Below the pieces are notes generated by a model. It saw only the letters and a program-made list of their open reading frames with translations, was not told the origin of the DNA and made no database searches. The translations under genes were made by a program, and so were the position numbers. 64,000 bases of DNA from Hyperoplus lanceolatus (lineage: Eukaryota > Chordata > Actinopteri > Uranoscopiformes > Ammodytidae), in the NCBI GenBank assembly GCA_026929865.2, contig CM049403.1, forward strand, positions 26,721,001 to 26,785,000, read 5' to 3'. Positions 31,793 through 64,000 of the stretch are shown here, one piece after another (positions within the stretch are counted from its first letter, which is position 1; every line of letters starts with the position of its first letter).

Positions 31793-31862
31793 ATGCACGC
31801 AATAACCCTAAGCTGTGTCCTATTTGTGTGGATGCAAACACTGACCGTAGTCAAAAGTGAAG
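31793..31862 (+). CDS. cfhl: Gene 1 exon 1: signal peptide
   Basis: ATG with A at -3 opens a 70-nt exon encoding a short N-terminus, a hydrophobic LSCVLFVWM core and a polar end. It stops in phase 1 at GAAG|GTAAAA. The upstream ATG at 31,782 runs into a stop after seven codons. The same 70-nt length recurs in genes 2 and 3. Confidence 0.85.
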
Positions 31863-34339
31863 GTAAAAGCAAGTACTTTATGTAATTTTCACATTCATTT
31901 TTATCTTGGCATTTCATTTGTAGTTCAACATTTTGTTTGAGGACTCAACAGACATTATTCATATTTGTTCTTTTTTTTCATCCTGCAGACTGTACACTTC
32001 AAGATTTTAAAAATGACCAAAGCTTATATGACAGCAATTTTGACACAAGTGATCTCTTGCCCAGCTACTCTAGTGGAAAACAAGTGAGAGTGGGCTGCAA
32101 TATTGGCTACAGTGGTTATTTCAAACTGATCTGTGACAATGGACAATGGACGAAAAGAGGCACAAAATGTCAAGGTGAGTTGATTCAAAGTGTGTCTTTG
32201 ACTGTTCAATATAAATATTTATACTACTATTATTAGTGGTCAACCCCAGTATACACAATATAAGTCATATAATGACATATAGTAGTGTATATTCTGTGAA
32301 ATGGGCATAGTGCCATGGTTTGAATGAATGCACAATGCCAAAACAAACTAAACCCTATTGTATTGTTATTTTTGAATTTATATTACATGATATATTAGTA
32401 TTAAACAAATTATGGCAACATATTTTTCAATGGAAGTAAAACTTGTATCATCATTTCAATGTTGTTCCTCTCTCATTCTTACGTTATAAGCAAGATCATG
32501 TGGTCATCCGGGCGAAGCTCAGTTTGCAGATTTTCAGCTGGCAAAGGACACCGATTATGTCTTTGGGTCACAAGTTGTATACACCTGCCACAAAGGGTAT
32601 GGAAACATTTTGTAATTATTTTAAAAAAAAAATCTTCTTTGTGCTTTGTTAGTATTATACCTTCATAACAAGAAGTGTGTTTGGTTCTTTATAAGCCAAC
32701 TCCATCATCCATCATACATTGTACTGTTTTCAGTTATCAAATGGTCAGTCGCATAAACTACCGGAATTGCATGGCTGAAGGCTGGGATGGTGTTGTTCCT
32801 GTCTGTGAAGGTAAGAGCTAAGATAATGGATCTTATTAATTTGGTACCTGACACAAACAGGGAAATGTCACTGTGTGTGTCATCCCTTGACAAAACTAAA
32901 AATATTTTTGCTTCCCTGCCTGTAGGTTGATATATTCAATTTGTTATACAAAGTGTTTTGGTCATCCAATTTTTCTCCTTCCAGCCCAACAGTGTCCATT
33001 TAAACCTGTGGACAATAATGTCCAGGTGAATGGGGACCTAAGTGAAGCAACCTATGGCAATGTAGTTCGATTTAGCTGCAAGAACATCAAAGAAATCCTC
33101 GAAGGGCAAACAGAGATCTATTGTGATGAAAAAGGAGAGTGGAGTGACGCCCCTCCAAAATGCAAAGGTAAAGCTGTAATGATAAGGCCCCTTGAGTGAC
33201 CTTCATGGACTTGGAAATGAAATATCTGAACCTAATAGTTGCACATGTAGGGAAATATGCTTATCCACGCAGAGAATCACAGTAGATGAGAAGATCGATA
33301 CCAACTCTGTCCATCCGAAACTTGGTTTAACAGCTGGCCTACCTTTATCTGGGGAGGTTGCTATCGGAGTCACTGTGAAACATTCTGGCACATGAAACAA
33401 CCACCCTAAATTAAAAGGGAGTAGAGATGATGCCGCCAGCCTTGAAACAACTGTCAGAGTGTGTTCAGTTCCTCAAACAGAAACTTAACAATGAATCCAA
33501 CGAGTACAAGTGCTCCGAAGTGATTGAGAAAAAAAATTGAATTCAAATGTATATCTGTCTCAGGAATCCATTCCATACAGTAAATATGAAAAACTTTGAA
33601 GGGAATTTTGAAGCTTAGCTAATGTACGCCGCCATTCACGTGTATTACCTGTGAATATAATCGAAAGTAGGCCATCATTTTAGTCTAAGATCAGGTCAAT
33701 CAGTTGTTACTGTTTATAATACTTTTCAATAACAAATGCAGTAATATGTATGCTTGTGTGTATTCTTCAACAGAAATGAAATGCACAGCACCCGTGATTG
33801 AAAATGGCATCGTGCGTGAAACAATTGAAGAGTACAAGGAAAATGAAATTCTGAATTTTGAGTGCAATCGCAAATATAAACGCAGCAACGAAAGACTTTC
33901 AAGATGTATTAAACAAGGAGATAGCAAAGCAGGTTGGAGCCCCACACCTCAGTGTGAACGTAAGTAAACTGAGTAATCCAAGTAATTGTTTTGATAAAGG
34001 TGACAAGGGGCTGGATGAATGGCTGACATGTTATGCTTTATTTCCCATCAAATGCAGCGGTAAGATGTAAACTGTCACCACTGGAAGGAACCCGATATGA
34101 ACCTGCGAACAGGAATGTGTTTTCACCTGATGACACCGTAACAGTCACTTGTCCAAAGAAGTTCTGGATTTTTAACTTTGGGGAATCCTCAGCATTAAGT
34201 ACATGTCAAGAAGACGGAGAATGGAGTATCAACCCGGTGTGCAGAGGTATGGAACTGTATGGACACACTATGAGCTTGTGGTTCTCTACTGTGTTTATGA
34301 AGATTGATCTTATCTCAATGTACTCAAGATACACTTCTC

Positions 34340-34378
<39 letters not shown>

Positions 34379-37300
34379 CTAGAGGTTACATGCAGCGGTG
34401 ATAAACCCCGACTTCAACATGTGTATTCCTGGCAAACAAACTGGGATACAAAGAAATTGGATGACACTGTACGTTACACATGTAATGAAGGCTACATGGA
34501 GACAAATGACAGGGCCACATGCACCAGAGATGGGTGGAAACCAAAACCATTGTGTAAAGGTACTGTGAAGTTAATTTCCATGATATGCAGTCAATTAATT
34601 ATACTGTGACGGATAAAGTAATCTGTCACAGTCTATTATGTTGATAGTATTTAATTGCAATTTACTGGAGAAAACAAATTAATACTGCCCTGCAGACTGA
34701 AAACAAGTCTGCAAAACATGTTGCACGTTGATGGTAGTCACAAATCTCAATAAATAATATGACAGCAGACAGGTATTGATTGGAATTTAGAAGCAGTTTT
34801 TCATACTGGTGACAGTAACAACACAGTAAATGTGTTTTGTTTGTTTGTTTATTTTTGCAGCAATAACATGTGACAGACGTGATGTAGAGAATGCAGATAT
34901 TGTCAGCAGTTATGCTAACCAACAGACATACAACTATGGTCAATGAGTAAAGTATGAGTGCCATGACGGTTATAAAGGAGATGTTACTCTAACCTGCACG
35001 AAAGGGGGTTGGGATGCAAATCGCCATTGCACAGGTAAGAAAGTACAGAACAATAATGTAATTTTTTTCATGTATAATTACATTTTTCTATCTATCTGTT
35101 TATCTTTGTTTATAGAGGCATGCATTACAGATCAACTGAAGGAATGATCATATTAGCCAAAACCATCCAACTTGTTTAATCCCCGGTCAATGTCTAATAG
35201 GCTACAGTGTTTTCAAGATGTTGGTTGGAAACAGTAACGCTTTTGTTTGATACAAGAAAATAAGAACAAAAATGTTGAAACTCCAAACAACTATGATTCA
35301 TTTGTCATCAACTACTGCTTTTTTATTGTATGAAAGACTTTAATTTCAGCTGGTGAAATCCCTACGGTAGTCTATAAAAAGCAGATCAGATATGTGCTCA
35401 ATCCAAATAATAATGATAATAATATATTCCCAAACTCAAAGCCTTGCCACATCTATCCAGGATGCTTCGACTAAATCATGAAAACATATAAAATCAATCA
35501 ACATATATTGTTTAAATCCCCCTTTAATCCTCCAGGTTAATTTGACACAATATCAAAAATATGACATTTACAACACTAATGTTTGTCTGACATATAATCT
35601 GATGTGCACTCTTTCTGATTTTCCTCAGAGATAACTTGTGACATAAAACGTTACCAGGAAGCAGACATTGTCGGACCGGCTAAGTCTACATACAAGTACA
35701 ATGAACAGGTTGAGTACAACTGCAAGACTGGTTATACAGGACGTTTCAATATAACCTGTGGGGAAAGAGGTTGGATCGGATCTCAACAATGCAAAGGTAA
35801 AAAAATACTATACACGATACAGTTGATAGGATAAAAGTTAATCCGTTTATGTAAGTTCTATTTTCTTCATGCTTACACCACATTAAAAAAAAATGTGGGG
35901 CAATATATTGGGGGTTTTCTAAATAACTGCAATAATGCAACAAAAGGTGTAGATGTTTAAGGTTTACAAGTATGTGTTAACTGTTCTTCTTCTAAACAAC
36001 TTTCTTGAGGATTTTGCTTATTTGATCAGTTCAATATTGCAAAATATTCAACTGATGCACATTTAAAATGGATGTTAAACTATTTCAAATGACTTGATGG
36101 ATAAGTGGAATTTGTATATGTGACACTGTGTAAAACACTAACCCTGACCCTAACCTTGCAAGGAAAGAAATCTCCAAATTATAGGATTCAATTTAATGGC
36201 ACCAGGACTCAATATCTTAGGCAAGCTTTCCAATAATGTTTGATCAGATATTTGAGTCTGGAACAAAGTAGCGTCCCTGGAGCACCAGATTAAACATGGC
36301 TACAAATGCATTGTTACTATCTTTTGGTTGATGCTTTCGGAATATAACTTTTTTTTTCTTCTATCTGCAACAGGATGTCAGAAACGTGATATTCAAAATG
36401 GATTTATGGTTGGCCCACACAATGAAACACTGTACTACACCTGCAAAGATGGGTATAAGCTTTTCACCAAACCCTGGTGGGGTGCAACCAAATGTGACTT
36501 TGAGGGGTTTGAAGAAAATCCATGCATCGGTAATTTTTGACACCTTACATATCTAGTGCTAACCAGCATGAAGCAAAGTGGCTACAGTGGCTTGTAGATG
36601 TACTTGAATATCAACTTCAAGCTGACTGCCAACTAAGAAGCTGTACATCATTTTCAAATATCTGTAATTTATCCTCATATTGGATATCAAAAAGGATATA
36701 AATGATCAGAATCTTGTAAAAAAGAGGTCAATCCTTAGCACTCCATCAATATACATTGGCAGTGAATGCTTCTCGCCCAATTCTTCTAAGCAACCTCCAA
36801 TATGACATACCCCCCCACCCCCCCCCCGGGGGGGACCCCCACCCATTAAATGGGAGAATTTCCCCCCCAAAAAAGGGGGAAAAAAGTTTTTTGTATAGAT
36901 ATATATAATATTTAAGAATAGGCTGTGTGTATGAATCATGTGTTAGTTTGAATTTCTTAAAACTTGACAAATTGATAGTGACATAACTGATACATGTCAG
37001 ATTTTGATGTGTGACTTTTTTGTTCATTTACTGTTAATATTTGTGTTAGGCAACAATAAACAAACCTTATTGTTTGTTATCATCTCTTCTCCAGAGAAAA
37101 GTAGGTGTGGAAAAAAACCTGATATTCCCAATGGGAAAGTGGACAGTCGCCACAATATTATTTGCAACGAAGGATACAAGGCTGCGTTTGAAAGATTGAT
37201 TTGCAGCGAGGGACAATGGCTCTTAAATGGAATATCACCCGAAGAAATCTGTACACGTGAGTCATCTTCAGTCTTATTTTATCATTTAATGTAAATACTA

Positions 37301-37551
37301 ATTCAAAGATTATAAAATGTGACCTTATAGTGCACATGTTTTTTTTATCTCTTGCAGATATTGCCGTTCCCTGCAAACCCCCACCTCAAGTTGAGAATGC
37401 AGTTGTCTTGAGTTTATATCAGAAGGAACATCTGTCTGGTTCTGACTTAACATATCGGTGCCGTGATGAGTGTACAACAGAGGGAGACGTTACAATTCGA
37501 TGTGAAAATGGAGAATGGCGGAAAATGAACCTTAAATGTACATGTACATAG
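31793..37551 (+). CDS. cfhl: Complement factor H-like gene 1 (signal + 11 CCPs, in-frame stop in CCP7)
   Basis: Thirteen exons encode a secreted chain of complement control protein modules. Factor H-family proteins bind C3b and host surfaces in plasma and act as factor I cofactors and convertase decay accelerators. The family call rests on CCP2, whose CGHPG opening and two-exon split (106 + 77 nt) match mammalian factor H, and on CCP4 with its YKENE motif. All exon junctions are phase 1, except the phase 2 split in CCP2, and coding lengths sum to 2,028 nt, divisible by three. A TGA at 34,944-34,946 inside exon 9 would end the product at 419 residues, after six complete CCPs. If read past it would be 675 residues; skipping exon 9 gives 617. 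The last exon ends in its own TAG and has no CCP20-like module. An AATAAA lies at 37,710. The paralogue identity within the fish cfh/cfhl family is not settled. Confidence 0.85.
31989..32174 (+). CDS. cfhl: Gene 1 exon 2: CCP1
   Basis: The acceptor CCTGCAG and donor AAG|GTGAGT bound a 186-nt phase 1-1 exon. The module has the four sushi cysteines (DC, GC, IC, KC) and the tryptophan of NGQW. It corresponds in position to factor H CCP1, the first of the C3b-binding N-terminal modules. Confidence 0.88.
32491..32596 (+). CDS. cfhl: Gene 1 exon 3: CCP2, first half
   Basis: A 106-nt exon from acceptor TTATAAG to donor GG|GTATGG. It encodes RSCGHPGEAQF and ends at YTCHKG, close to the mammalian factor H CCP2 opening. 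The acceptor lacks a good pyrimidine tract immediately upstream, but phase only fits this site; the alternative AG four bases downstream breaks frame. Confidence 0.85.
32734..32810 (+). CDS. cfhl: Gene 1 exon 4: CCP2, second half
   Basis: A 77-nt exon completes CCP2: YQMVSRINYRNC, AEGW and PVCE. Joined in phase 2 to exon 3 it restores the four cysteines and the Trp. The INYR motif is shared with mammalian factor H CCP2. Donor is GAAG|GTAAGA. Confidence 0.88.
32985..33167 (+). CDS. cfhl: Gene 1 exon 5: CCP3
   Basis: A 183-nt phase 1-1 exon with acceptor TCCTTCCAG and donor AAAG|GTAAAG. Cysteines are in QQCPF, FSC, YCD and KCK, with GEW before the last. Decayed relics of this exon occur near 56,550 and 59,486-59,727 inside gene 3, showing that this part of the locus was duplicated. 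Confidence 0.88.
33225..33345. repeat. Fish interspersed-repeat fragment in intron 5
   Basis: The motif GGGAAATATGCTTAT followed by GATGAGAAGATCGATACC is one I recognise from a widespread fish repeat. Ends are not resolvable here. It accounts for much of this 606-bp intron. Confidence 0.45.
33774..33959 (+). CDS. cfhl: Gene 1 exon 6: CCP4
   Basis: A 186-nt phase 1-1 exon: EMKC, FEC, SRC, QCE cysteines and GW. The YKENE string before the second cysteine is shared with mammalian factor H CCP4. CCP1-4 together form the regulatory fragment in factor H, so the N-terminal part of gene 1 looks complete. Donor GAAC|GTAAGT. Confidence 0.9.
34058..34246 (+). CDS. cfhl: Gene 1 exon 7: CCP5-like
   Basis: A 189-nt phase 1-1 exon starting after AAATGCAG and ending AGAG|GTATGG. 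Motifs are VRCKL, VTCPKKFW, TCQEDGEW and VCR. Two near-identical copies, each 192 nt, sit at 57,991 and 63,369 in gene 3, together with about 90 bp of the following intron. Confidence 0.88.
34335..34374. repeat. (CT)n tract serving as polypyrimidine tract of exon 8
   Basis: About 40 bp of CT repeats runs up to TTATTCTAG, the acceptor of exon 8. The same repeat in the gene 3 copy at 58,272-58,289 coincides with a duplication junction. Confidence 0.85.
34383..34559 (+). CDS. cfhl: Gene 1 exon 8: CCP6
   Basis: A 177-nt phase 1-1 exon: VTCSG, YTCNEGY, ATC, DGW and LCK give a complete module. The acceptor uses the CT microsatellite as pyrimidine tract, so repeat length could affect splicing. Donor AAAG|GTACTG is weaker than its neighbours. 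Confidence 0.85.
34861..35034 (+). CDS. cfhl: Gene 1 exon 9: CCP7 with in-frame TGA
   Basis: A 174-nt phase 1-1 exon with a strong acceptor (TTATTTTTGCAG) and donor (ACAG|GTAAGA). It has all four cysteines (ITCD, YEC, LTC, HCT) and the GGW. TGA at 34,944-34,946 falls between YNYGQ and VKYEC, where exon 10 has YKYNEQVEYNC, so the module is otherwise intact. Options are a true truncation, an assembly or allele error, or exon skipping, which would keep frame. Confidence 0.82.
35629..35796 (+). CDS. cfhl: Gene 1 exon 10: CCP8
   Basis: A 168-nt phase 1-1 exon: ITCD, YNCKTGY, ITCGERGW and QCK. It is closely similar to exon 9 (both start with ITCD and carry ADIV), so the two look like a tandem exon duplication. 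The 594-bp intron before it shows no repeat that I recognise. Confidence 0.87.
36374..36529 (+). CDS. cfhl: Gene 1 exon 11: CCP9, short module
   Basis: A 156-nt phase 1-1 exon, the shortest CCP here. Cysteines are GCQ, YTCKDGY, KCDF and PCIG. The usual Trp before the last cysteine is not in its normal place; a WW pair sits before the third cysteine instead. Acceptor CTGCAACAG, donor ATCG|GTAATT. Confidence 0.82.
36811..36895. repeat. C/G homopolymer palindromic tract in intron 11
   Basis: Runs of C, then G, then C, with AAAAAGGGGGAAAAAA following, form a low-complexity foldback of about 85 bp. Nothing around it suggests a transposon end. The exact run lengths are doubtful. Confidence 0.7.
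37095..37256 (+). CDS. cfhl: Gene 1 exon 12: CCP10
   Basis: A 162-nt phase 1-1 exon with acceptor TTCTCCAG and donor ACAC|GTGAGT. Motifs RCGKKPDIPNG, ICNEGY, ICSEGQW and ICT define the module. Confidence 0.87.
37358..37551 (+). CDS. cfhl: Gene 1 exon 13: CCP11 and stop
   Basis: The final 194-nt exon includes TAG at 37,549-37,551. It has the four sushi cysteines (VPCK, YRC, RCENGEW, LKC) plus two extra ones, in RDEC between Cys II and III and in the terminal TCT. It is not CCP20-like. Confidence 0.86.
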
Positions 37552-37709: not shown

Positions 37710-37715
37710 AATAAA
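37710..37715 (+). promoter_or_regulatory. Poly(A) signal AATAAA, gene 1
   Basis: First canonical AATAAA after the TAG of gene 1, giving a 3' UTR of roughly 180 nt. Confidence 0.6.
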
Positions 37716-40679: not shown

Positions 40680-40749
40680 ATGCCATGGCCCTTAATCCTT
40701 TTGTTTCTCCAACTTTGTGGGAGTGCAGAAGTTTCACCGCTATCAAAAG
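40680..40749 (+). CDS. cfhl: Gene 2 exon 1: signal peptide
   Basis: ATG with A at -3 starts a 70-nt exon encoding MPWPLILLFLQLCGSAEV and a polar end, stopping in phase 1 at AAAG|GTAAGA. Cleavage after GSA is plausible. The length is identical to the signal exons of genes 1 and 3. Confidence 0.85.
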
Positions 40750-43700
40750 GTAAGACAGACGTATTTAAATACTTGCTTTCCAAAAAGTGCATATTGTTGT
40801 GAAAGTGACGGGAGAGGGGTTGCAAAGGGAAGAGACTTGTGGTATTGCCCGTTTTACAGTAGGACCAGTGTTTATGGGTGGGATGGTTAACTTATGAATG
40901 GGCAGTTTAGTCTCAAAAATGATATTCTCATAGCTGAGGAGATCTTCTTGTTTACAGGCTTTGATATGACTGAAAACTGGCATGTGTTACCCTCGATTAT
41001 AATTTTTTTTCTGTCCAATTGTTTTGTTTTCTATGTTGCTGTTTGTCAGAATGTCCAAATGTCCCAGTTGTTCTTCACGCCCAAGTGTCCGAAAAAACCC
41101 AAAAGACTGAGTACCACGTCGGGGATGCGATACTTTTTTACCTGTGAAACAGGTTATGTATCAGGTCGACCCATCAGATATTTATGCACAGAGAGAAGCT
41201 GGACGAGAATGCATCAAGGACAGTGTTACTGTGAGTTACATGGCTTTCTGTTCTGTCTTACATTTTCTTGAAGGCTGGTTGATGACTAATCAGGTTACAA
41301 CAAATGCGAATCCTTTATAATCTAAAGTTCATTATATTTTTACAAGGATACATTACAATTTAAGCCATTCATTAAGAATTGAAATGTAACACTTTCATAA
41401 TTGTTTGAACAGATTATGGTATTGAGGGAGTTGTATTATATTGCAACCACAATTTCTAGTAACCATTCATCAATCTGCCTTTTTACATAAACAAACAAAC
41501 AACATGGCTGCTGATTAACATAGATGTATGTAACATATTAAAATGTCACTGGCAGTTGGCTTTCAACTAAAATCCAACAATGAAGCCTGAAAGACTAAAG
41601 CCTAAAGTTCAAAGCAGGTTAAAAAATCTCCCAATTTAAGAAACTGTGTGGTTAATGACTGATTGTTTTCTTCTTCTTCTCTTTTCAGTGAAGCCATGTG
41701 AACTTCCTGAAGACACTCCAAATGGCCAATTTGAACTTGTCCACGGTGAAGACTTTGTTTTTGGGTCAACTATCAAATACTCTTGTAATGAAGGGTATGT
41801 ATCTTAGTAGTTGGTTACCTGGCTATATAAAGGAACCGGCAGATATGAGGACAATTTAAATTATTTACTATGGTATGGCATTTCATATGAATACAGCTGA
41901 ATGAGATTTGCTTTTGTAAAACATTGTCAAGCCCCTAGATTGGTTACATAGCTGTCATATGGAAAAGTTTTATTGACATTAGACAAATAAATAAATAACA
42001 TATCATAATGTTCTATGATTCATTTTAAAAAGAGTAAGAATGAGGACACAAAAAGGGATAACCACTTTGCACATTGTTTTTATCACAATTTCCCTGACAG
42101 ATTGTGTTGTAAATAATGACGTGTTTTCATTTGATAATGGAAAGCTGTACGGTGATGTTGATTGCAGGTATCAAATGGTGAATAAGGAAGACACCAGGAC
42201 ATGTTTCCTTGACAATTGGACAAATCACGTGCCAATATGCGAAGGTAAGTCTTGTGACAACATTTGGTTAATAGTTCTGTCAATTACTAGCAACTTCAAA
42301 GCTGCACTAGATTATTATTTTTTTACTGTACAATTTGTTGCTTTTTTGAATTTTAATTTAGGCAAAATAGGATGAGTCTTCTGCATCTCTGTTATTAGTT
42401 GGGAGGGCTATTGCATGCACCCCTTGTTCGGGAAATAAAAGTATAAATCCCAATCATTTTTGCTATTGACAATGTCAAGTGGACTTCAATACACTCTAGT
42501 TAACTTAGCGGCTTGTTGTAACTGGGCGTCCTTAAGTTAAAACAGCAACTTTGGGTGTTGACAAGCCATTTTTTGGCATCAAACTTGCATTAATGATATC
42601 ATGGGAACTCTCTAATTGATTTTTGTACTGAGTTCCATTGATGTGCTATCCTGATCGAAAAAGACGGCATGGCCGGATGCAGCTCTCCTCAGAAGGATTG
42701 TGCAGTTTCCTGCTGCACCTCTAGTAACTTTGTTGGTCGTAGATTTGGATGTGAGGAAACAACAAGAGGAGGAGGAGCTAAGCCATCATTAAACTAGACA
42801 TATATATTTTTGAACTTGATGAGGTTTACACAGGTTAGCAGTTACAATTAAAACGGGTCACTATAACATAAACATCTAGTGTCCAGTATCTAGGAGGGGT
42901 CTGTGTAACTGTGTTTGTTTGTTAAGTAAGGATATTGTTAAAAGATAAACATGAAAAAACTCAGCCTATACCACCTTGAAACTCAATGGGAAGTCTCTGT
43001 TGATGCCCTGCTGTGTGATTTTGGTGTATATAATACATTTATTTATACATTAAATTCTTATTTTTTTCAGCATTCATTTTTCACCCCCTCATTGACTTGA
43101 CTAACTGTTGTGTTTATTCAGCTTCGAGCTGTGATCCCCCGCCTGCAGATGGACGGCTACAAGTACAAGGTTTACCAGGAAACGATGATCCCATACTTCC
43201 TAACCGTTTCCTTACATTCAGCTGTGATGTTCGCGGGCAATATCTGAACGGCAGCAAAGAACTGATATGTGGTAATGATGGACAGTGGGATAAACCATTT
43301 CCCTCTTGTGAAGGTAAAACCTTAAAGATAAAAAATTATATATGTCTTTTCTAAAGATTAATTTTATACTTTTAAATGGTAGCGCATGTTACAATATACT
43401 ACAATCTAATATACTGAAAGGACTATACATTACCACCGAACCTCAGAGTCTTTCATTTGATAATATCTGTTTTATTTTTATTTTTACAGACATTATTTGT
43501 GAAGTTGACGAGATGGGCCCTCATCTCAATGTAAACGGACTACCATCAGGAAATGAAAGAATGAAGTCCGGGCATGAATTACAGTTTCAATGCCAACATC
43601 CATATATCCTGGATGGTTCTTACCAAACTATATGTTTAGAAACCGGGAAGTGGAGTACACCCATGCCAGCCTGCAATGGTATGTTCACTTTTAGAAAATA

Positions 43701-45929: not shown

Positions 45930-46048
45930 AGTTTTTTACTCAGTAGCTGGGTGTGGTCATTTTTACTAAAACATATATTTTCACTTCTGCTTTCTGCCAA
46001 TCATCATAATCATGACCATGCAATCTTGTAGTTTTTTTCTTTTTTCGT

Positions 46049-48180: not shown

Positions 48181-49344
48181 CCCGACACAGTTCTCAAATC
48201 CTTATTTTAGATATGATAGCCTAATATATACGTCAGGCAAACACTTTTGGACCATTTCCCTGCCCTGAGACACCTGACCTTGTGTTTCTTTGTGAGATTA
48301 TTGATCAGTGGTGGAAAGGACTTTAATTAAACAATTAGGCTGGCATTATTCAACACTTTTCTTATTGTCACCAAATCCCATTAAAAGAACCAAACCCTGT
48401 ATGTCTGAGCAAAAGTCTAGATGTAGGTTTAATGTATTGCTTTATTTGGTATTTTCATGTGATTTATAAAGAATGAAAGACCTATAGAAAATCACCAGAC
48501 TTATCTTTTAAATAATGATGAAAAAATCAACAATTACTTGTTAGCACACAAAGACCTGTGGTTTTTCTATTATTTATTTCAAATAATAGCCGGTTAAAGT
48601 AGCATTAACCTAACAAGAGGAAACCCAGTATCCAGTGTCAAAAATGGTAAGTCTTTCATTTATCATCTCACAACACTGTAGCTTTATCTTGTGGCATAGA
48701 GGGTCACACACATATCAGTGACTCTTGAGAAGTCGGACAAAACAGGGTAAAAAATACAAACCCTATGTTTAGGCAAATTAAATGACATGTATGTATCCAA
48801 CATATACAAAGCTACTGAGCTAAGGTTTGACACAACCTCCCAGCTTTTGTCCTTTTTATCAAAATGGACTTTTTACCTTGCTTCTCCTTTTTAACGTGGA
48901 CTTTTTACCTTGCCATTCCTTATTTTGTGTCAACTCCGTCAGACACCAAAAAACACAAATAAATGTTTCCTCATTTTATGCTAGACCCATGAGATGCATG
49001 GTGATCACAAATATTCACCAAAACTGATAGAGCCACAAACAAATATTTTCAAAATATATGAATATACATGTTTTTGATATCTGACGGTGTTGACGTTTCT
49101 TAAACAGAACAAATAGAGTTTTTCTAGTTGCAGTTTGGTTTTTCTGTTGTTGATAGGTGCTAGTATATGAACTACTTCAGGAAAATAAAATTATCGAAAC
49201 ATTTCATATAACTTCTTCAGAAATTGTAAGTCGGTGTTGACGTATCATGGTTGTGACGCAGGACTTTCAAGATTTGTAATGTAAAATATTCTAACTGACA
49301 AAAAGTGTCCCCCCACTTAGAAACCTTATAAAACATGAATGTTT
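48181..49344. other. Intergenic, nothing recognised
   Basis: Flank of gene 2 displaced by the L1-like insertion. A TTTATCATCTCACAAC string near 48,658 recurs near 50,588, so part of this flank belongs to the tandem duplication. Confidence 0.5.
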
Positions 49345-50216
49345 GTGGGTTGTGGGAAATCACCACCACTTGATAATGGAGACACTGAGAGCATTGTGAA
49401 ATTCAACCACAACCATAATGAAAGGGTTTAACACATCTGTCAAAACTACCACATTATGGAGGGTGACCCTTACTTAACCTGCATCAATGGTGAATGGAGA
49501 GGACAGATGAGATGCCTCAGTAAGTTAAAATTCACTGCATATTTTGAACGGGTAGTTTCCAGTGTTTACAAGATTGATTATTTCTAAGTTATGTACACTA
49601 GTCAAATGTGCACTTAACTATTTTGCATTTTACTTTACTCTAATTATTCAACAGCTTTTTCACAAGTTTTATTTAAATTTTTTAATCTAATATTTTTATA
49701 TAAAAAAAGATCTACAAATCCATCTACCCACAAGTGCAGCTGCAACTATTGCATGTGATTTGGGTTAAGTAATGTATGCATCCTTTGAATAACATTAAAA
49801 TATTTACATTGTAGATTATTTATTTTGACAGATTTAACGGCTGTATAACACTGAGACTGTAATCCCCACACACATTTTACGTACAGTAAATGATCAAAAT
49901 AAAGTTAATTTTCTTTAAAGAGTACAAATGAAAGCAATAATGATAAACGGAGTGTGTTGTACAGTCTTTCCCCATTAACAAAATGCTGTTTATCTGTTAT
50001 CTCTTTCAGAACCCTGCACTGTGAATGAATACGCCATGAACGGACATGGTATTGACCATGTCCATGGTATTCAAATTCTCTCATCAAAATAAGTTGTATT
50101 TAACACATGATGATTTCGTTGAGTTCAGGTGTACCAGAGGAAGAAGACATGATGGCGTAGTGGGAATGTGTCACAGATGTGTTGATGGTGAAATCCTTCT
50201 GCCCTCTTGCAGTTAA
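49345..50216 (+). pseudogene. Duplicated, broken copy of gene 2 last two exons
   Basis: 49,345-49,519 matches gene 2 exon 8 and 50,010-50,216 matches exon 9; the intron between them is also alignable, so this is a DNA duplication and not a retrocopy. In the first exon AAA TAC is replaced by TAA CAC, giving an in-frame stop at about 49,429. The second contains an inserted CATGGTATT-type repeat and further stops, though its acceptor, donor-side donor GTAAGT, terminal CAGTTAA and an AATAAA at 50,341 survive. No signal exon or other CCP precedes it. Confidence 0.85.
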
Positions 50217-50627
50217 AGGTTTTTAGTCAACTAGCTGGTTCGTCAAACATATAAATGAAAACATGACTACATGCTTTGACCATTTATAAAGTAGTTATGA
50301 AATGATCTGTGTCTATTCTATGATGTCAACTGTGACCATTTAATAAAACATACATTTTCACTCAGTCTGCTTCATTCTTCCACAGCCGGATACAAGTGTT
50401 TATTAGGGGAAAAAACATAAACCTATTTCCTTTTTAAGCCTTTAGTTAAACGCATCAGACACTCATTTCTAGTCAGGCCTGCAATGATGCGAAAATTAAA
50501 CACAACAGTTGACTTTCGATAATTTTTAAATCACTGCTGAAGGCCAGAATGATGTTCACACATTGTTTTTCTTCTTTCCTCTTAGATTTATCATCTCACA
50601 ACCCTGTAGATTTCTCTTGTGACCTTG

Positions 50628-52579: not shown

Positions 52580-52799
52580 TTTCTTTATATGTCCTTGCTT
52601 CCCCCCCACATTAGTAACCAGAAATGTCCACCGTGCAGTAGTCTATGATAACCCCACCCCCCCCCATTTCTTATTGGTCCACGGCCCCGAGATCCTCTAG
52701 GAAATTTTCCGAGCGACAGCCATGTTGCTTTCCCCGCTAAGCAACAAGATGCCCATAGTAGCCTACAGCCTGAATGTTACATACACCAACACAGAATGC

Positions 52800-53480
52800 T
52801 TTTGCTCATACTCCACTAATTTATCTTAACCACAGCAGTCTATGCCTCGTTTTTAATAACACAACGGATAAGAAGCTATTTGTGGGTTTTTGCAAACAGT
52901 GAAACTGAAAGAAATGTTTTTAATGGTATTTTTGCCTGACTGGTGTATAGCTATTTAGCTTTGGGACAAGCATTCAGCTTTTGCTCATAAAAACATAATT
53001 CTATTACCCACACCAGTCTGGAAATGCCTCGTTTTTAACAGGACGAAGGATTGGAACTTAATAGTGTGGAAGTCAAATTTGAAGATATTTTTTTCACTGA
53101 TTTGTGTGGTATTTTTAGTCGGTAGCTTCCGAGCTAGCTTCGAGACAAGCATTCAGCTTTTGCTCATAAAAACATAATTCTATTACCCACACCAGTCTGG
53201 AAATGCCTCGTTTTTAACAGGACAAAGGATTGGAACTTAATAGTGTGGAAGTCAACCTTGAAGATATTTTTTCCTGTTTACTGGTATTTTTAGTTTATTT
53301 ATCGTCTGAGTCTTATTTTTGCGTAGCATGTAGTTTCGGTTGTAGCACCAAGTTTTGCTCATAACACGCTGTTTATATTCCCCACAGCAGTCTGAAAATG
53401 ACTCGTTTTTAACATGACAAAGGATGGGAAGATATTCCTGTAGAAATCAAACTTTGAAGCTACTGTTTTCACTGGTTTTA
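52800..53480. repeat. Tandem repeat, about four units of 179-195 bp
   Basis: TTTGCTCATA starts at about 52,801, 52,980, 53,159 and 53,354. Units also share CAGTCTG, CTCGTTTTTAACA and a GGAAG block. Units 2 and 3 are almost identical; 1 and 4 are diverged. Likely an internal array of a larger mobile element. Confidence 0.85.

Positions 53481-54815: not shown

Positions 54816-54908
<93 letters not shown>
54816..54908. repeat. (CA)n microsatellite
   Basis: About 93 bp of CA directly abutting the 31-bp foldback. Confidence 0.95.
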
Positions 54909-55190: not shown

Positions 55191-55464
55191 AGCTTTAGTT
55201 GACTGGAAATGACACAAGCTGGCTGAACAAACACGTGAATAATTAACAAGAGGAAATAGGTTTGTTTAGGAGACAGAAGTTGTTTTTATAACCAATGATA
55301 CTGTGGCAGTTCTACATCCAAGCAAGTCAACATGGTATGTGGTGTTCCATACTTTTGAGGACAATAAAAAAAACATTTTTGAGATAGAAGAAAAAAAAGA
55401 AAAATTATGTCTTCGCTAACCCAGGCGTTTATCTGAAGAATATAAATGAATCTGATAAACTAAG

Positions 55465-55468
<4 letters not shown>

Positions 55469-55559
<91 letters not shown>
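55469..55559. repeat. (GT)n microsatellite
   Basis: About 91 bp of GT roughly 160 bp upstream of the gene 3 start codon. Confidence 0.95.
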
Positions 55560-55716: not shown

Positions 55717-55786
55717 ATGAGACTCTCTCACCTCCTTTGGCTTTTTATCCTGTTTCTAAACATGGACACAACTTTGCAGCAGAATG
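55717..55786 (+). CDS. cfhl: Gene 3 exon 1: signal peptide
   Basis: ATG in CACAATGA context opens a 70-nt exon, MRLSHLLWLFILFLNM and a polar end, to AATG|GTAAGA in phase 1. It is a strong hydrophobic core with the same length and phase as the other two signal exons. Confidence 0.8.
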
Positions 55787-58700
55787 GTAAGAGGTTTTCA
55801 GGTATTTTTTCTCTGCTTTTACTGAATTGAGAAAACAAAAATCTTTCACATATTAGTCTGTGTAACAGTCTGAGATGTCAAGACGATGATAAGTGACCAT
55901 CTGAAAAGAAAAAACTTACAAGTTTTGATTGATTGATTTGATTGATTGATTTATATTTATTTCGTCCATGGATGTCTTCCAACAAAACTCATTTCAACAT
56001 TCTCACATGTACCATCCATAAAACCATGACGAAAAGGAGGCAGGATGAAGAATATCTTATATTTCCTGTCCCCTCAAAACAAAACCAAACAAAAAAAACA
56101 CTCTACATGTCAACTCATGTCAGTGCATGACAATAATAAATTAAACAAAATAGAAACCAAAACATCAATCTGAAACTGATTACAAAGTAGAATTGCTCAG
56201 AACTGATTGATGAGTGAGTGAAGATGAACGTTGATCTGTTCACAAGAACTCATTCCATAAAAGTATATAGCAAATTAAAAAAAGGTGGCACAAGGGATTT
56301 TAGATCTAAGTTGTGATATGCTATTATTTGTGTTTATTACCTTTTGAAAATAGGCTGCGATTGTAGTCTTGCACTTTGAGTGGCCTTGTGTCTGAATTGT
56401 GCTATATAAATAAACTTGCCTTGCCTTGTATCAGGTCAATCAGTCGTTATACTGCTCATTGGACTCTTCAACGAATACACTTATATGCAGGCTTATGTCT
56501 TCATTTCATATTGCTTATTTATTTTGTTATAATAATTCATTCATCCAGTAGGCCTAGTTTGATTTGGCTGCAAGGCCAACACAGAATAATGACCCCGAAT
56601 TCCATTACTACTAAAACCCACTAGTTTAAAAGATGCATTCACACTACAGCTTGTTGAACTTTAACGATATCATATACTCCCTTTCAAAAACGTTTTACTT
56701 TTTATTTGAAGTGTTTTATTCCCGAATCAGTGACTTCGAATACCTTGTAGAAATATGTATCTGAAGGAATAAATATTTCAATCTTCAGAATAACACAATC
56801 AACTGAGCATAAAGAACAGTGTTGGGAACGTTACTTTAAAAAAGTAATTAGTTATAGTTACTCACTACATGTTCCAAAAAGTAACTGAGTTAGTAACTGA
56901 ATTACTATATAATAGAAGTAACTAGTTACCAGGGAAAGTAACTATTTGCGTTAGCCTATACTGTAAAAAGAAAAAGTTGCTATATGTCAACAAATTTGGA
57001 TTTTTCTGAGCAGTTTTCACAAGTTAGTTGAAATGAGTAGAACAGACAAGTAGAGCTAGGCCTACTTGTAGGGTACATAACCTTCAATATTTATTGCACA
57101 TCAACAGACATCAAGAGGTTTATCCTGCACTTCAAGTATTTTGTTCTCAACAAAGGTAGTAAAAGAAACTGCTGAATGTACCGTGCTGATCTCCTAGCCT
57201 ATATCACTGGATTCACTTCAGGGGTGTCGGCTAACACACCACTTAAGGCCAAAAACGTCAGACTATGAAGCATGAGACGATGAGAGGAGGAGTAAGGATT
57301 TATCCACTGTTTATTTCCTTCTTTAACGTGCACAGCAGCATACAGATCCCAGGAAAAGAGCAATAGCAATATTCGGCTCGTGATGACACGCTAAACAGCT
57401 GTTGCAACCGGCGAATCGCGGCCGTTTAATAACGTGCATAAATTATAATTTATAGAGATCGGGAAACTCCGTGCACTTACTCACAAGGGCCATGCAAACA
57501 AACTCAGGGAAAGCACGTTTCAACCGTGGATTGATAGGTGGTTACTGCGGCAACGTGCACGCTCACACAGCAGAGAGAAAGAAAAAGAAACTTCACTAAA
57601 CAGGCGCTCCGGCTGACTGACGTGACGGCGCTAACTGACAGTTAATGTCATCCACACTGAATAAAACACAACTTAAAACACACCGGTCTCCTCACTAGCA
57701 GTTTGTGTAGTATGGAGCCAGGGGTGCGTTCGGATTACACTGTTTATTCAATCAATAGTAACGCACCACATTTAACGTTCAGTAACGATAACGGCGTTGT
57801 AACGACGGAAAAAGTAATTAGTTAGATTACCCCGTTACTGAAAAAAGAATGGCGTTACCTAACGCCGTTATTTTAAACGGCGTTATTCCCAACACTGATA
57901 AAGAAATATTGGATGGGTGACATGTAATTATAATCTGCCTGCCATGTTACAACAAACTAACAGATGTGCTTTATTTCCCCACAAATGCAGCGGTTAGATG
58001 TAAACTACAACTGCCGCCACCGGAAGGAACCAGATATGAACCTGCTTACAAGAATGTGTTTTCACCTGATGAAACCGTAACAGTCACTTGTCCAAAGAAG
58101 TTCTGGATGTTTAACATTGGGGAAACCTCAGTAGTAACTACATGTAAAGAGGACGGAGAATGGAGTATCGCCCCCGTGTGCGGTATGGAACTGTATGGAC
58201 ACACTATGAGCTTGTGGTTCTCTACTGTGTTTATGAAGCTTGATCTTATCTCAATGTACTCAAGATACAAAACTCTCTCTCTCTCTCTCAGAATTGATTG
58301 ATGAGTGAGTGAATATGAACGTTGATATGTTCACCGGAATTCATTCCATAAAAGTATATGGCAAATTTAAAAAAGCTGGCACAAGGGAATATACACTCAC
58401 CGGCCACTTTATTAGGTACACCTGTTCAATGGCTTATAAAAACAAAAAGCTTATCAGCCAATCACATGGCAGAAATGTAATGCACTTAGGCATTTACACG
58501 TGGTCAAGACAAGGTACTGAAGTCAAACCGAGCATCAGAATGGGGAAGAAAGGGCGTTTAGGTGACTTTGAACATGGCATGGTTGATGGTGCACGGCAGG
58601 CTGGATCCATACTTTCATGTTGTTTACGCCAAATTCTGAACCTGCCATCTGAATGTCGCAACTGAAATCGAGACTCATCAGACCAGGCATGATTTTTCAA

Positions 58701-61700
58701 TCTTCTATTGTCCAATATTGGGAATCCTGTGAGAATTGTAGCCTAATTTTCCTGTTTTTAGCTGACAGGAGTGGCACCCGGTGGGGTCTTCTGTTGCTGT
58801 AGCCCATCTGCTTCAAGGTTGGTCGTGTTTTGCGTTCAGAGATGGTATGCTGCATACCCTGGTTGTAACGAGTGGTTATTTGAGTTAGTTTTGCCTTTCT
58901 ATCATCTCGATAGTATGCCCATCCTCCACTGACCTCTGACTTCAACAAGGCATTTTACGTCCACACAAATGTCGCTCACTGGATATTTTTTCTTTTTTGG
59001 ACCATTCTCTGTAAACCCTAGAGATGGTTTAGAGTGAAAATCCCAGTAGATCAGCAGTTTCTGAAATACTCATATCAGCCCTTCTGGCACCATCAACATT
59101 GCCATGTTCAAAGTAACTTAAAACCTCTTTCTTCCCCATTCTGTTGCTTGGTTTCAACCTCAATAAGTTGTCCTGTCCAGGTCTACATGCCTAAATGCAT
59201 TGAGTTGCTGACATGTGATTGGCTGATTAGTTATATGTGTTAACAAGAAAATGAACCGCTGTACCTAATAAAGTGGCCGGTGAGTGTGAATCTATGCTAC
59301 GATATGCTATTATTCGTGTTTATTACCTTTTGAAAATAGGCTCTGATTTTACTCTTGGATCAGGTCAATCAGTCGTTACTGTTCATCGGACTCTTCAACA
59401 AATACACTTATTTGCAGGCTTATGGCTTAATTTCTTATGTACTTTTTCATTTTGTTGTAATAATTATTTCATCCATTAGTTACTTTGGACAATAATGTCC
59501 AGGTGGCGATTGTTTTAATAGTCGATTAATAATCGATTAATCGTTGCAGCTCTAATTGTATGTGTTTGCTTATTCTGTTTTTTGTTTTTGTTTGTTTTAT
59601 GTCTGTATGTAAAAAATTGCAAAAAATCATCAAAATAAAAGTTAAAAAAAAAAAAAGTCCAGGTGAACAGGGTCCCAAATGAAGGAACCTATGGCAATGT
59701 AGTCCGATTTAGCTGCAAGTCCAACACATAATTAGCTTGGTGCTACCAGACCATCGTACTTCATTTCATTTGAGGGAAAATTAAATTTGGGCGGAAGTAG
59801 GTGGGTGGGCAGAGCCAGGCTAACATAGAATAGCCTAATGACCCCAAATTCCTTTAGGCTACTACTAAGACCTAGCCTGGAAATCCATACCCTGATATCT
59901 TGAACGATAGAGGGTCTGGCCACGATCAATAGTAATTTCCAACTCAAGGGGCGGCTCCTACTCGTGCATTTCAAATGCCACTGCAGGCAGTTGGATAGCA
60001 CTACAACCAATCAGAGCGATGCACAAGGTGACGTAAGCCCCGTTCGTTTAGCGAACAGCTGTTAAACTGTTAAATTAAACGTTTGCCGTTGTCGGTCGGC
60101 AAAACAGAACATTCCACTTACTTGCTAGGGTCATTCTATAGAATCGGTGCCCTTTGTGTTTGATTATAAGAAAAAAAAGTACATTCAAATTCTAAACTTT
60201 TTTTGATGTGATGTGACATATTGATATTAACATCTAATAGAAACAATATTTTCCCATCTCAACATCAACATTAAAATGATTATTTTGAGAAATTTTCAGA
60301 AACATGTCACACTTTAATTCAACCCCGTCACGGTCATTTTGTTATTCAGGTGCTAATATTTAGAATGGGTTTCTGATAATATTCTGACATGATCTCTCAG
60401 TTTAGATGTCCCTTGTAATAATCACATAATGTTATTCAATTTAAAAAAAAATAAAAAGCCTCAAGCACCATCCAAGACCGGTTATGATGAAAATATTTGT
60501 CTTCCCACTCGGCATTTTCACTGCTCATATGCAGTAATGTCATGTAATTAAAAAATATATTCATCTACTTGTTTTTCCAGTTACAACACACACAAGTAAA
60601 CACATGTTGATGTTATATGTTGTATATTTAATACAAAAATGCAAAGAAATGCTGAACAACAGAGTTGAAAATCATGTAACAGGGTTGAATGATGATGTCA
60701 CCTTTTTAAATTATTTGTATAAAACCCACATTTTTGTGAATTAATGTAATGAAGGAGGTTTTTCTACCCTTTGCCCAGCTGTCCTGTTAATCCTAACCCT
60801 ACATTTGACCATGTGTGATGTCACACATGGTAAAAATAGGGTTAGATAGTGAGACCATAAACACTCGTTCTGCCTTTTCTCAGGCTAGGATGTACCGATT
60901 TCTTAAGTGTTTGCATATTTATATTACATAGGATCTCAGAGTTCAATACACCTTCATATTCCCACCAGTTAAATAGGTCTTTAATGTCATATTTAATAAG
61001 AAAAGTTATGATAGGGGGAGAGTGGTTGCGTTACGGGGTTGAATGAAACGCAGGGACAGGGATAAACGCTTAAATTACTTAAAAAATAAAAAATTATACT
61101 TTAAATTAAATGTGTTATTCTTTAAAATTACCCATTTCAATTAGCCTAAATTAAACCAAAAAGTGCAGTGTTATTTAACATTGAGTACTCAAAATGGCGG
61201 AAACAGGCGGAATTCCCAATAATCAAAGAGAGAAAACATGTAAATGTTGAAATAAATTAGTATTTTATTTTTTTATTTCCTACAGCATATTAAGAACATG
61301 CAGAACTTTTAAAAAATCTGGTTGTAATTTTCTTAAATACATGTTCTGTAAAGTTGTATTAGTAGAGATGCTTGGGACATTGAAAGATTATAAAGGGCAC
61401 CGAATCTGTAGAATGACCCGCTAATGAAAGATTTGAGTGCCGTCTTCCAAATCGTCAAGGGTCGAGGCCAAAGCAGTCTCAAACTCACACAACATATCCG
61501 CAGCCATCTTTGATGTTTACTATCACGGCTTCGACGTCGCATGCACGTCACTGTCGTCATCCGGTTACGTCCTCCCCAGATTACCATAGGGCTTCTGGGG
61601 CCTGTTTCAGGTAGCTGGTTTTACATACTCTGGGTTTAACCCTGCGCTCTGAGTTGGTAAACTCAGAGCGCAGGGTTGATAAGCAACTCTGGGTTTTCGG

Positions 61701-64000
61701 TTTCAGAACAGTGGATCAGCGTTGGGTTAATCAACTCTGAGCGTGTTCACTCTGGGTGGAGCGTGTGCATAAAAGCCATCGTCAATGGATCGCTGAAAAC
61801 ATGATTCACCATGGAAACAGAAGAAACAAATGCTTGATCCGCCCACTTCTCCACTTCTCAAAAAAGAAAAAAAAAACTTCTCCTCTCCTCCCACTAGAGT
61901 AAGAAATATTAACTTATGAGCTTATGGAGAAGAATGAACGGGGATAGTCTCATAACTCTGATCTAATCACTTCGGCAATTCAGAAAAAACGGTGCAAACG
62001 TTTTTTGTCAAGAGCATCATTGCTTCCGTATGAGAAGCAAGTCTATTTTAAGAATTAAGTTACGCATATCAGCAGCAACAAAATTATCAAGCTGCCGCTG
62101 CACAGCACTGCTGACAGTGTTTTATATTCGCTGTAGCCTATTATGTAGGCAAGCTATAATAGGCCTACTGTGCAGTAAACAGACTGTCGCTTCTTTTAAA
62201 TGGGGAGTGAAAGATATTCGTTTGACACATAAGGTGACAGTTTTCATTGTAGATCCTGATTGTTTTATTACCAGATCCCTTGTCCTCTAGTGATCACAGT
62301 TTAAATTATTATATTATTACTATATTCATATTGGGCTATTTAACGATCCTTGTCTGTGACTTTGGGATGACACAAGTGAACAGTAACGACCGCGTGCAGC
62401 CGCAGAATTACATTTCAACCTGACATAAATAGCCTATGTTCAGTGGCACAGATGTTAAAAAACTACTGATAATGATAAAAATAAATAACGAGATACATAC
62501 AATACAATAGGTTTATTAATCTGAATGTAAAGCATGTTCACGATGTGTAAGGTGGCCGCATATGAACGAACGAGGGCTGAGAACAAGGCTACTGATCAAA
62601 TGATCGATCACACGTAAAATCATCAGGAAATGATAAAAACATCCCGATGGAGATTTCTATGGAGTGATTTTGCTTTAAACTGTACAGGGTTGCGTTGTGA
62701 CAGTGACTCTTTCTTCAGTCGGAGCTGCAGCGTAAAGTGAAAACAAACTCAGGGTAGGTCTAACCACCTATCCAGCAGGTTAGACCCACGGCGTATGTTG
62801 CCGCAGTAACTGACTCTCGGTTGCGCTGAACCTGCTACCTGAAACGGAAAACCCAGAGTTTCCACCAACTCAGAGCGAACAAACTCTGGGTTGCCTCAAA
62901 ACCAGCTACCTGAAACAGGCCCCTGGTCATCTTGATAAAGCTTCAACGGAGCGTGGGGCCAGACCAACAGGCGCAGCAAATTTAATTTGCCAGCGCCTAG
63001 TGGCAGGTCTGGGAATGCCAGGCTAACTAAGACCCCCTAGTTTAAAAGATGCATTCACACAACAGCTTGTTGAACTTTGGCTTATAGCAGACAAATGTTG
63101 ATTTGTACAAGATTATATCATATACTCCCTTTCAACAACGTTTAACTTTTTTATTTGAAGTTTTTTATTCCCAAATCAGTGACTTCAAATACTTTGTAGA
63201 AATATGTATCTGAAAACTGCTTAAGAAATGCATATTTTGATCTTCTTCATAGTAGAATAACACAATCAACTGAGCATAAAGAAATCTTGGATGGGTGACA
63301 TGTAATTATAATCTGCCTGCCATGTTACAACAAACTAACAGATGTGCTTTATTTCCCCACAAATGCAGCGGTTAGATGTAAACTACAACTGCCACCACCG
63401 GAAGGAACCAGATATGAACCGGCTTACAAGAATGTGTTTTCACCCGATGAAACCGTAACAGTCACTTGTCCAAAGAAGTTCTGGATTTTTAACATTGGGG
63501 AAACCTCAGTAACTACATGCAAAGAAGACGGAGAATGGAGTATCGACCCGGTGTGCAGAGGTATGGAACTGTATGGACACACTATGAGCTTGTGGTTCTC
63601 TATTGTTTTCATTCTCCTACAGTAGATCTACTGTATATCTGTATCTATACAAATGAGGTAATATTGTTTTGAAAAATGTAGTGATATGAATTTAGGTTGT
63701 CTGAATGCAAGATATTGTATGATTTTGACATTTTCCAAATTCCTTACCCACATGATTCTTTACAGGTGTGCATTCATCTAATACCTTCGATTGTACCTTA
63801 TCTGTTCCCATGTGTTTTAGACCCTGTAGGCTGTGCGAATCCACCACCTATTGCAGATGGAGACCTCAAGGACAGTATAAAAAGTGAATACAGCCATAAT
63901 GAAGCAGTTGAATATATGTGTCCAGCCTACTACACTATGGAGGGTGAGCCTTACAGAACCTGCATCAATGGTGAATGGAGTGGACACACAAGATGCCTCA
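55717..64000 (+). CDS. cfhl: Complement factor H-related-like gene 3, right end outside window
   Basis: Four intact exons in matching phase are visible: signal (70 nt), two CCP5-like modules (192 nt each) and a CCP19-like module (180 nt) that ends exactly at the window edge. Joined, they stay open across 634 nt. A CCP20-like final exon would be expected just beyond 64,000, by analogy with gene 2. The protein would be a short secreted CCP chain like mammalian FHRs, which lack the N-terminal regulatory modules and can compete with factor H for C3b or surfaces. The introns are large and full of transposons and of CCP3 relics, so expression is not assured. Alternatively it is a partly decayed duplicate whose exons happen to remain open. 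Confidence 0.68.
56371..56428 (+). mobile_element. Short LINE/SINE tail insertion
   Basis: CACTTTGAGTGGCC ... ATAAACTTGCCTTGCCTTG is present in block copy A and absent at the matching point of copy B (about 59,357). The CTTGC repeat is a LINE-type tail. Confidence 0.6.
56540..56575 (+). pseudogene. CCP3 exon relic, copy A
   Basis: TTTGATTTGGCTGCAAGGCC corresponds to the FSCK region of gene 1 exon 5 and to the copy B relic. Too short to encode a module. Confidence 0.55.
56817..57897. mobile_element. hAT-like element with 8-bp duplication
   Basis: Ends are CAGTGTTGGGAA and TTCCCAACACTG, flanked by ATAAAGAA at 56,809-56,816 and 57,898-57,905. The matching site in copy B (GAGCATAAAGAAATC near 63,270) is empty, confirming both the boundaries and the order of events. 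The 1,081-bp interior has no transposase. The subterminal GTAACGCCGTTA strings are typical of this fish hAT family. Confidence 0.92.
57991..58182 (+). CDS. cfhl: Gene 3 exon 2: CCP5-like, copy A
   Basis: A 192-nt phase 1-1 exon, intact: VRCKLQLPPPEGTRYEP, VTCPKKFW, TTCKEDGEW, VCG. It lacks the Arg codon before the donor seen in gene 1 and copy B but keeps phase (TGCG|GTATGG). Confidence 0.78.
58272..58289. repeat. (CT)n at duplication junction
   Basis: The CT run homologous to the exon 8 pyrimidine tract of gene 1 ends here, and block copy B starts directly after it. Confidence 0.8.
58394..59286 (-). mobile_element. Tc1-like transposon with broken transposase
   Basis: Inverted ends CACTCACCGGCCACTTTATT and their complement bound an 893-bp insert; the left end follows TA, the right has TG. 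On the minus strand 58,948-58,697 gives RPHRVPLLSAKNRKIRLQF and 58,715-58,494 gives WSDESRFQLRHSDGRFRIW and MDPAC, both recognisable Tc1-type transposase. Frames are split and the C-terminal third is lost. Confidence 0.88.
58494..58948 (-). pseudogene. Tc1-type transposase fragments
   Basis: Two overlapping minus-strand frames carry consecutive parts of one transposase. The WSDES motif contains the first catalytic Asp. A frameshift near 58,700 separates them. Confidence 0.85.
59486..59727 (+). pseudogene. CCP3 exon relic, copy B, split by a retroposon
   Basis: GGACAATAATGTCCAGGTG on the left and GTCCAGGTGAACAGG ... CTATGGCAATGTAGTCCGAT on the right match gene 1 exon 5 on either side of an insert. 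No acceptor and no second half of the module remain. Confidence 0.82.
59506..59656 (+). mobile_element. Retroposon insertion with 9-bp duplication
   Basis: A 151-bp insert ending in an A-run of 13 or more is flanked by GTCCAGGTG at 59,497-59,505 and 59,657-59,665. It contains CGATTAATAATCGATTAATC, a motif known from other fish repeats. Confidence 0.85.
59729..59828. mobile_element. Small MITE of the TTAGC(C/T)TGG type
   Basis: ATTAGCTTGG on the left and CCAGGCTAAC on the right frame about 100 bp that is absent from copy A. The ends resemble those of the larger element at 59,873. Confidence 0.55.
59873..63025. mobile_element. Unassigned DNA transposon, 3.1 kb, with nested insertion
   Basis: Ends TAGCCTGG and CCAGGCTA with a shared CCAGACC-type subterminal motif are flanked by ACTAAGACC at 59,864-59,872 and 63,026-63,034 (9 bp). 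It contains the Harbinger-like element at 61,598. No transposase frame is recognisable. Superfamily unclear; 8-9 bp duplications would allow hAT, Merlin or MULE. Confidence 0.75.
61598..62922. mobile_element. PIF/Harbinger-like element nested in the 59,873 element
   Basis: Ends GGGCCTGTTTCAGGTAGCTG and the complement, flanked by CTG at 61,595-61,597 and 62,923-62,925. Three-base duplication and GGGCCTGTTTC termini fit PIF/Harbinger. Subterminal CTCTGGGTT / AACTCAGAGC palindromes are present. No transposase across 1,325 bp. Confidence 0.78.
63369..63560 (+). CDS. cfhl: Gene 3 exon 3: CCP5-like, copy B
   Basis: A 192-nt phase 1-1 exon, intact: VRCKLQLPPPEGTRYEP, VTCPKKFW, TTCKEDGEW, VCR. Almost identical to copy A; ends AGAG|GTATGG like gene 1. 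Confidence 0.8.
63821..64000 (+). CDS. cfhl: Gene 3 exon 4: CCP19-like, reaches window edge
   Basis: After TGTGTTTTAG: VGCANPPPIADGD, YMCPAYY, RTCINGEW, RCL. It is 180 nt to the last base of the window, the same length as gene 2 exon 8, so the donor should be the next two bases. Confidence 0.87.

Follow-up and report, generated by a model that had tools for sequence, protein, structure and literature searches.

A probable complement factor H-like gene cluster in Hyperoplus lanceolatus with counterparts of the two factor H ends on neighbouring genes

Gene models and their matches to human factor H

A 64,000-nucleotide stretch of Hyperoplus lanceolatus contig CM049403.1 (GenBank assembly GCA_026929865.2, positions 26,721,001 to 26,785,000, forward strand; hereafter the window) was analysed for genes of the complement factor H (CFH) family. 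Three gene models composed of CCP (sushi) modules lie in a row on the plus strand, from 31.8 kb to the right end of the window. Gene 1 (31793-37551) has 13 exons and 11 CCPs, gene 2 (40680-45929) has nine exons and seven CCPs, and gene 3 (55717-64000), which is cut by the window end, has four exons and three CCPs within the window. Judged from the sequence, the window is very probably part of a teleost-type complement factor H-like (cfh/cfhl) cluster. The 26 exons (13 + 9 + 4) agree in number and length with those of a first-pass annotation of the same DNA; two reading-frame lesions and a dead terminal exon pair, described below, were absent from it.

All exons and exon copies given here are on the plus strand. 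In the three models 23 of 23 acceptors are AG and 23 of 23 donors are GT. Whole CCP exons are in phase 1-1, a symmetry usual for CCP exons, while the two halves of CCP2 are in phases 1-2 and 2-1. Genes 1 and 2 are complete to the stop, which follows directly on the last CCP, and their models contain no exon of a membrane or oligomerisation type. Both therefore read as signal peptide followed by tandem CCPs only, with no membrane anchor.

The signal exons (exon 1 of each gene) lie at 31793-31862, 40680-40749 and 55717-55786, and each is 70 nt long, in phase 1, with a GT donor. A scan for an ATG, a hydrophobic core and a phase-1 GTRA donor gave seven candidates on the plus strand between 30 and 64 kb, of which exactly three were 70 nt long, namely those of genes 1-3. 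The three remaining strand/half sets, 94 kb of strand in all, yielded 3, 0 and 0 candidates, all of them of other lengths; the thresholds were chosen after the three exons had been seen, so the scan is a check and not a test. When the 70-mers were aligned with one another, the score was reached by 0 of 2000 shuffles for genes 1-2, by 0.75% for genes 1-3 and by 3.9% for genes 2-3. The flanks of the 70-mers aligned no better than shuffles.

Sushi matches (Pfam, E ≤ 0.01) were obtained for 15 of 21 exon translations, a set that included four half modules and left out the two lesion exons. A hidden Markov model (HMM) trained on 11 of the window's own modules scored at best 7.0 bits in 1-31.8 kb and 10.2 bits on the minus strand, against up to 78 bits in the cluster, where matches arise by construction. 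At E 0.05, a tblastn search of the window with 17 modules and three signal peptides (gene 1 CCP7 and gene 2 CCP1 left out) placed no copy to the left of 31.7 kb and none on the minus strand.

Homology of the modules was judged by matches to PDB module sequences in place of a module tree. Residues 27-263 of gene 1 are colinear with mature human CFH 23-261 at 140.0 bits, the best CR1 stretch giving 73.3 bits. This alignment covers most of CCP1 and all of CCP2-4, leaves the first 26 residues unaligned, and contains 82 identities among 216 aligned residues. Gene 1 is the only one of the three with an N-terminal CCP1-4 colinear with that of CFH. These modules are encoded by exon 2 (CCP1, 31989-32174, 186 nt; Sushi 18.7 bits, below the cut-off of 20.7), exons 3 and 4 (CCP2), exon 5 (CCP3, 32985-33167; Sushi 29.2 bits) and exon 6 (CCP4, 33774-33959). 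For CCP2 alone, the best stretch was human CFH CCP2 (57.8 bits).

Exon 7 of gene 1 (CCP5, 34058-34246) encodes a module of a type common to gene 3, with a predicted CCP fold. It is followed by exons 8 (CCP6, 34383-34559), 9 (CCP7, 34861-35034), 10 (CCP8, 35629-35796), 11 (CCP9, 36374-36529; Sushi 16.4 bits, below the cut-off), 12 (CCP10, 37095-37256; no Pfam match alone) and 13 (CCP11 with the stop TAG, 37358-37551).

Gene 2 carries the other end. Its CCP2-7 matched CFH 851-1211 at 131.4 bits and CFH 65-295 at 97.5 bits, with 68.7 bits for the best CR1 stretch; because both parts of CFH are matched, no one stretch of CFH corresponds to the middle modules. The C-terminal pair is of the CCP19-20 type. 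At E ≤ 0.001 it matched 24 PDB sequences, namely 23 of CFH, CFHR1/2 or F13B and, in last place, OPG190 (E 7e-4). For the terminal module alone, 21 of 21 PDB matches at E ≤ 0.1 were CFH, CFHR1/2 or F13B, with CFHR2 the best. Ten of 18 human CCP19-20 residues, on a list drawn up by the analyst, are kept in gene 2 (N1117, D1119, Q1139, W1157, R1182, K1188, L1189, S1191, R1203 and R1215).

The exons of gene 2 after the signal exon are exon 2 (CCP1, 41050-41230), exons 3 and 4 (CCP2), exon 5 (CCP3, 43122-43313), exon 6 (CCP4, 43490-43678), exon 7 (CCP5, 43943-44125), exon 8 (CCP6, of the CFH CCP19 type, 45004-45183) and exon 9 (CCP7, of the CFH CCP20 type, with the stop TAA, 45739-45929).

CCP2 is split in both genes into parts of 106 and 77 nt, at 32491-32596 and 32734-32810 in gene 1 and at 41689-41794 and 42168-42244 in gene 2. 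A human CFH splice variant described in PMC6856713, c.350+1, shows that the human intron interrupts codon 117 behind its second base. Counted along the CFH sequence, this codon is the Gly of CNEGY, and the CCP2 intron of genes 1 and 2 falls in the identical Gly and phase, a residue-exact agreement. The outer borders of human CFH CCP2, which we take to be c.245 and c.427, give the same lengths of 106 and 77 nt. Other genes of the regulators of complement activation (RCA) also split some of their CCPs, so the split supports CFH identity and is not proof alone. The first-pass annotation had claimed a 70-nt phase-1 signal exon in all three genes, the 106 + 77 nt split in genes 1 and 2 and the same split in mammalian factor H, and the measurements bear out the first two; for human CFH they bear out the position and phase of the intron. 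The architecture it took to be common to all three genes holds for the signal exon; in gene 3 neither CCP1-2 nor a split CCP2 is seen in the window.

Gene 3 continues from its signal exon with the exon 7 block of gene 1 in duplicate (exon 2, 57991-58182; exon 3, 63369-63560) and then a CCP19-like exon that reaches the window end (exon 4, 63821-64000). Exon 4 shares 51% identity with exon 8 of gene 2. Exons 2 and 3 differ by 6.0 synonymous changes at 41.0 sites and by 2.0 nonsynonymous changes at 145.0 sites, a pattern that hints at constraint, with too few changes to lean on.

Of six PDB matches to the exon-7 module at E ≤ 0.1, five were C1s (best E 0.0021) and one was CSMD1. Its predicted structure has the CCP fold; taken alone, Foldseek gave no match at E ≤ 0.001, the best being C1s at 0.003. 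Pfam ranked HRM (hormone receptor domain) above Sushi for 34060-34245, 57993-58181 and 63371-63559. An HRM identity was set aside, as the predicted fold agrees with CCPs.

Two repeat features were seen beside these exons. An inverted repeat (58393-58592 and 59087-59287, 81% alike), possibly a mobile element, lies in an intron of gene 3. Long CA and GT tracts, inverted with respect to each other, occupy 54816-54908 and 55464-55559, a short way upstream of the signal exon of gene 3.

Exon-block copies and reading-frame lesions

The window was compared with itself using blastn. Gene 1 positions 34034-34353 are copied at 57967-58289, and 34034-34298 at 63345-63612, both at 89%; an alignment of the two gene 3 copies, 340 columns long and with intron sequence in it, shows 95% identity. 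A copy of the end of gene 2 (45008-45950) occupies 49344-50238, with 74% identity including gaps and 91-95% over the first exon. In this copy the counterpart of exon 8 (49344-49519) has no acceptor AG at the matching place and contains a TAA (49429-49431), and the counterpart of exon 9 (50010-50216) keeps its acceptor and has a broken reading frame. With three lesions, the copied terminal pair at 49.3-50.2 kb is dead. A relic of gene 1 exon 5 (CCP3) is present at 59651-59719 (87% over 69 nt). Recent duplication of exon blocks within the cluster appears clear from these copies.

Between genes 1 and 2 there was no blastn match at E 1e-4, and at E 0.34 just two chance matches on the minus strand. 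The CCP2 modules of genes 1 and 2 are 45% and 48% identical to human CFH CCP2, and 38% identical to each other. Since a nucleotide match is lacking and each CCP2 is closer to the human module, a whole-gene duplication behind genes 1 and 2, if local, would be old or masked by fast change. The local duplication proposed in the first-pass annotation thus stands for exon blocks (the exon 7 block, twice in gene 3, and the gene 2 terminal pair) and is not clear for recent copying of whole genes. A tandem repeat of about 179 nt (52798-53478, with weaker copies) lies between the dead pair and gene 3.

Genes 1 and 2 carry one lesion each. Of the 675 codons of gene 1, 419 precede an in-frame TGA in exon 9 (34944-34946), which ends the frame. 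In gene 2, exon 2 measures 181 nt, one base over a multiple of three, and its frame, shifted near a run of six T (T6, 41134-41139), stops after 55 residues. All 22 exons of the two genes have intact AG/GT borders, and the 20 without a lesion have intact frames; when the lesion exon is omitted from either gene the frame is open to the normal stop. Judged from the sequence alone, each lesion may be real, polymorphic or an error of sequence or assembly.

It is quite possible, if somewhat short of probable, that both lesions are sequence or assembly errors and that genes 1 and 2 are intact. Indels in homopolymers are a common kind of long-read error, and the single extra base of gene 2 exon 2 can be placed at the T6 run. 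The gene 1 TGA, however, is not at a homopolymer; it could derive from CGA by a common transition. That genes 1 and 2 are instead pseudogenes or null alleles, in a largely decaying cluster in which perhaps gene 3 alone works (completed beyond the window), would account for the TGA and for the stop after 55 residues, and would suit the dead pair and the CCP3 relic nearby. We hold this to be rather unlikely, as each gene has a single lesion among otherwise intact borders and frames, whereas the dead pair carries three.

Skipping of the lesion exons, giving shorter in-frame regulators, appears improbable. Joining the remaining exons does leave only the final stop in each model; with the phase symmetry of CCP exons the frame would be open anyway. 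A wider proposal builds on this, in which the cluster functions as a kit of exchangeable parts: a C3b-regulating end and a surface-binding end would sit on separate genes, recent exon-block copying would make new combinations, and genes 1 and 2 would persist through skipping as shorter, altered regulators, single lesions being passable because whole CCP exons are in phase 1-1. We regard it as decidedly doubtful. If it were true, the gene 1 product would either stop in CCP7 and so be comparable in size to human FHL-1 (the first seven CCPs, according to PMC7593401), or be made without CCP7. A product stopping in CCP7 would end inside the module, and its message might be degraded.

Factor H identity of the cluster

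The identity of genes 1 and 2 as factor H-like follows from their colinear matches to human CFH and from the common position of the CCP2 intron. To this extent the factor H-like assignment of the first-pass annotation is upheld for genes 1 and 2. The case for gene 3 depends on the last exon, through its likeness to gene 2 exon 8 and its match to CFH, which is about equal for CCP19 and CCP10.

Several observations weigh against a factor H-like cluster. By summed score CR1 ranks first for genes 1 and 2, a result of the many CR1 repeats adding up. The C-terminal module of gene 1 is not CCP20-like, and the gene has no CCP19-20-type pair. Gene 2 CCP1, read in two frames, matches CFH weakly, and at CCP10/11 rather than CCP1, while gene 2 exon 9 alone gave no Pfam Sushi match. 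Eight of the 18 CCP19-20 residues are changed in gene 2 (Y1142, W1183, T1184, K1186, V1197, E1198, R1206 and R1210); PMC3630169 lists four of the 18, R1203, R1206, R1210 and R1215, as glycosaminoglycan-binding. Gene 3 exon 4 is equally like CFH CCP19 and CCP10 (stretches of 45.1 and 45.0 bits), and CFH is absent from the matches that the exon-7 module (genes 1 and 3) gave on its own at E ≤ 0.1. The reading frames of two of the genes are broken, as described above.

Neighbouring genes may add a further point of this kind. The account of the CFH region in PMC7768046 lists ASPM, KCNT2, F13B, CDC73 and others as neighbours. No Pfam domain of a CFH neighbour was found in 235 of 240 filtered open reading frames (ORFs; at least 45 aa) from 1-31.8 kb, a scan which short exons could escape and which leaves the right flank outside the window. 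The 118 plus-strand ORFs gave no family and the 117 minus-strand ORFs gave three at E ≤ 0.01. The best of the left-flank matches, Cortexin (E 7.7e-4), is not convincing, about 0.2 such matches being expected over 235 proteins. It possibly lies at 12731-12880 on the minus strand (the ORF was picked by eye) and may be a chance match.

Another RCA family (C4BP, CR1/MCP-like or F13B) is highly improbable as the source of the cluster: CR1 leads the summed score, F13B also matches the gene 2 terminal pair and the CCP2 split is not diagnostic alone, yet the best single stretches at both ends are CFH and the models of genes 1 and 2 end after the last CCP with no membrane- or oligomerisation-type exon.

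A cluster of the factor H family thus remains the preferred reading, in which no gene model has the make-up of a one-to-one orthologue of CFH. Human CFH has 20 CCPs and both ends in one protein, whereas the genes here have 11, seven and at least three CCPs, with the ends on two separate genes. The likeness to human CFH lies in CCP1-4 of gene 1, the CCP19-20-type end of gene 2 and the position and phase of the CCP2 intron. Gene 3 resembles human CFHR1-5 in having a signal exon, few CCPs and a CCP19-like module, with no CCP1-2 seen. It is unlike them in opening with two CCPs of the C1s-like exon-7 type, and any CCP20 would lie outside the window.

Proposed role and comparison with known fish clusters

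Proteins of the factor H kind circulate in the blood and protect an organism's own cells from complement attack. In factor H, CCP1-4 bind C3b, assist factor I and accelerate convertase decay, and CCP19-20 bind C3d and host polyanions. By analogy, each gene of the cluster would give a secreted plasma protein made of CCP modules alone, assuming splicing, secretion and expression in the liver. CCP1-4 of gene 1 may bind C3b, hasten decay of the alternative-pathway convertase and act as a cofactor for factor I. Binding to C3d and host-surface polyanions may fall to the CCP19-20-type end of gene 2 and perhaps also to gene 3. The likeliest role of the cluster would be soluble control of the alternative pathway, together with tuning through CFHR-like competition.

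Factor H-like clusters are already known in fish, and the window adds a further member. As described in PMC7768046, ray-finned fish have one to six cfh-family genes, duplication has been species-specific, and in zebrafish there is a block of such genes on chromosome 22. The zebrafish block and the teleost Cfha/Cfhb genes of that account share with the present cluster adjacent factor H-like genes, homology to CFH and lineage-specific duplication, a likeness drawn from the published description and not from fish reference sequences. In rainbow trout, eight genes are reported in PMC10623068, of which five are clustered on Chr5; CFHL-1 is given there as a plasma protein with five short consensus repeats. 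The Chr5 cluster, which includes a putative CFH orthologue, resembles the present one in its clustered sushi genes and short plasma proteins, the five repeats of CFHL-1 standing against 11, seven and at least three modules here. The same report describes higher plasma levels of CFHL-1 in a disease-resistant trout line, and it could therefore be useful in practice to know which copies of such a cluster are intact.

For the family, the window provides a well-resolved cluster in which the two functional ends of factor H belong to different, adjacent genes, with exon blocks moving from one gene to another.

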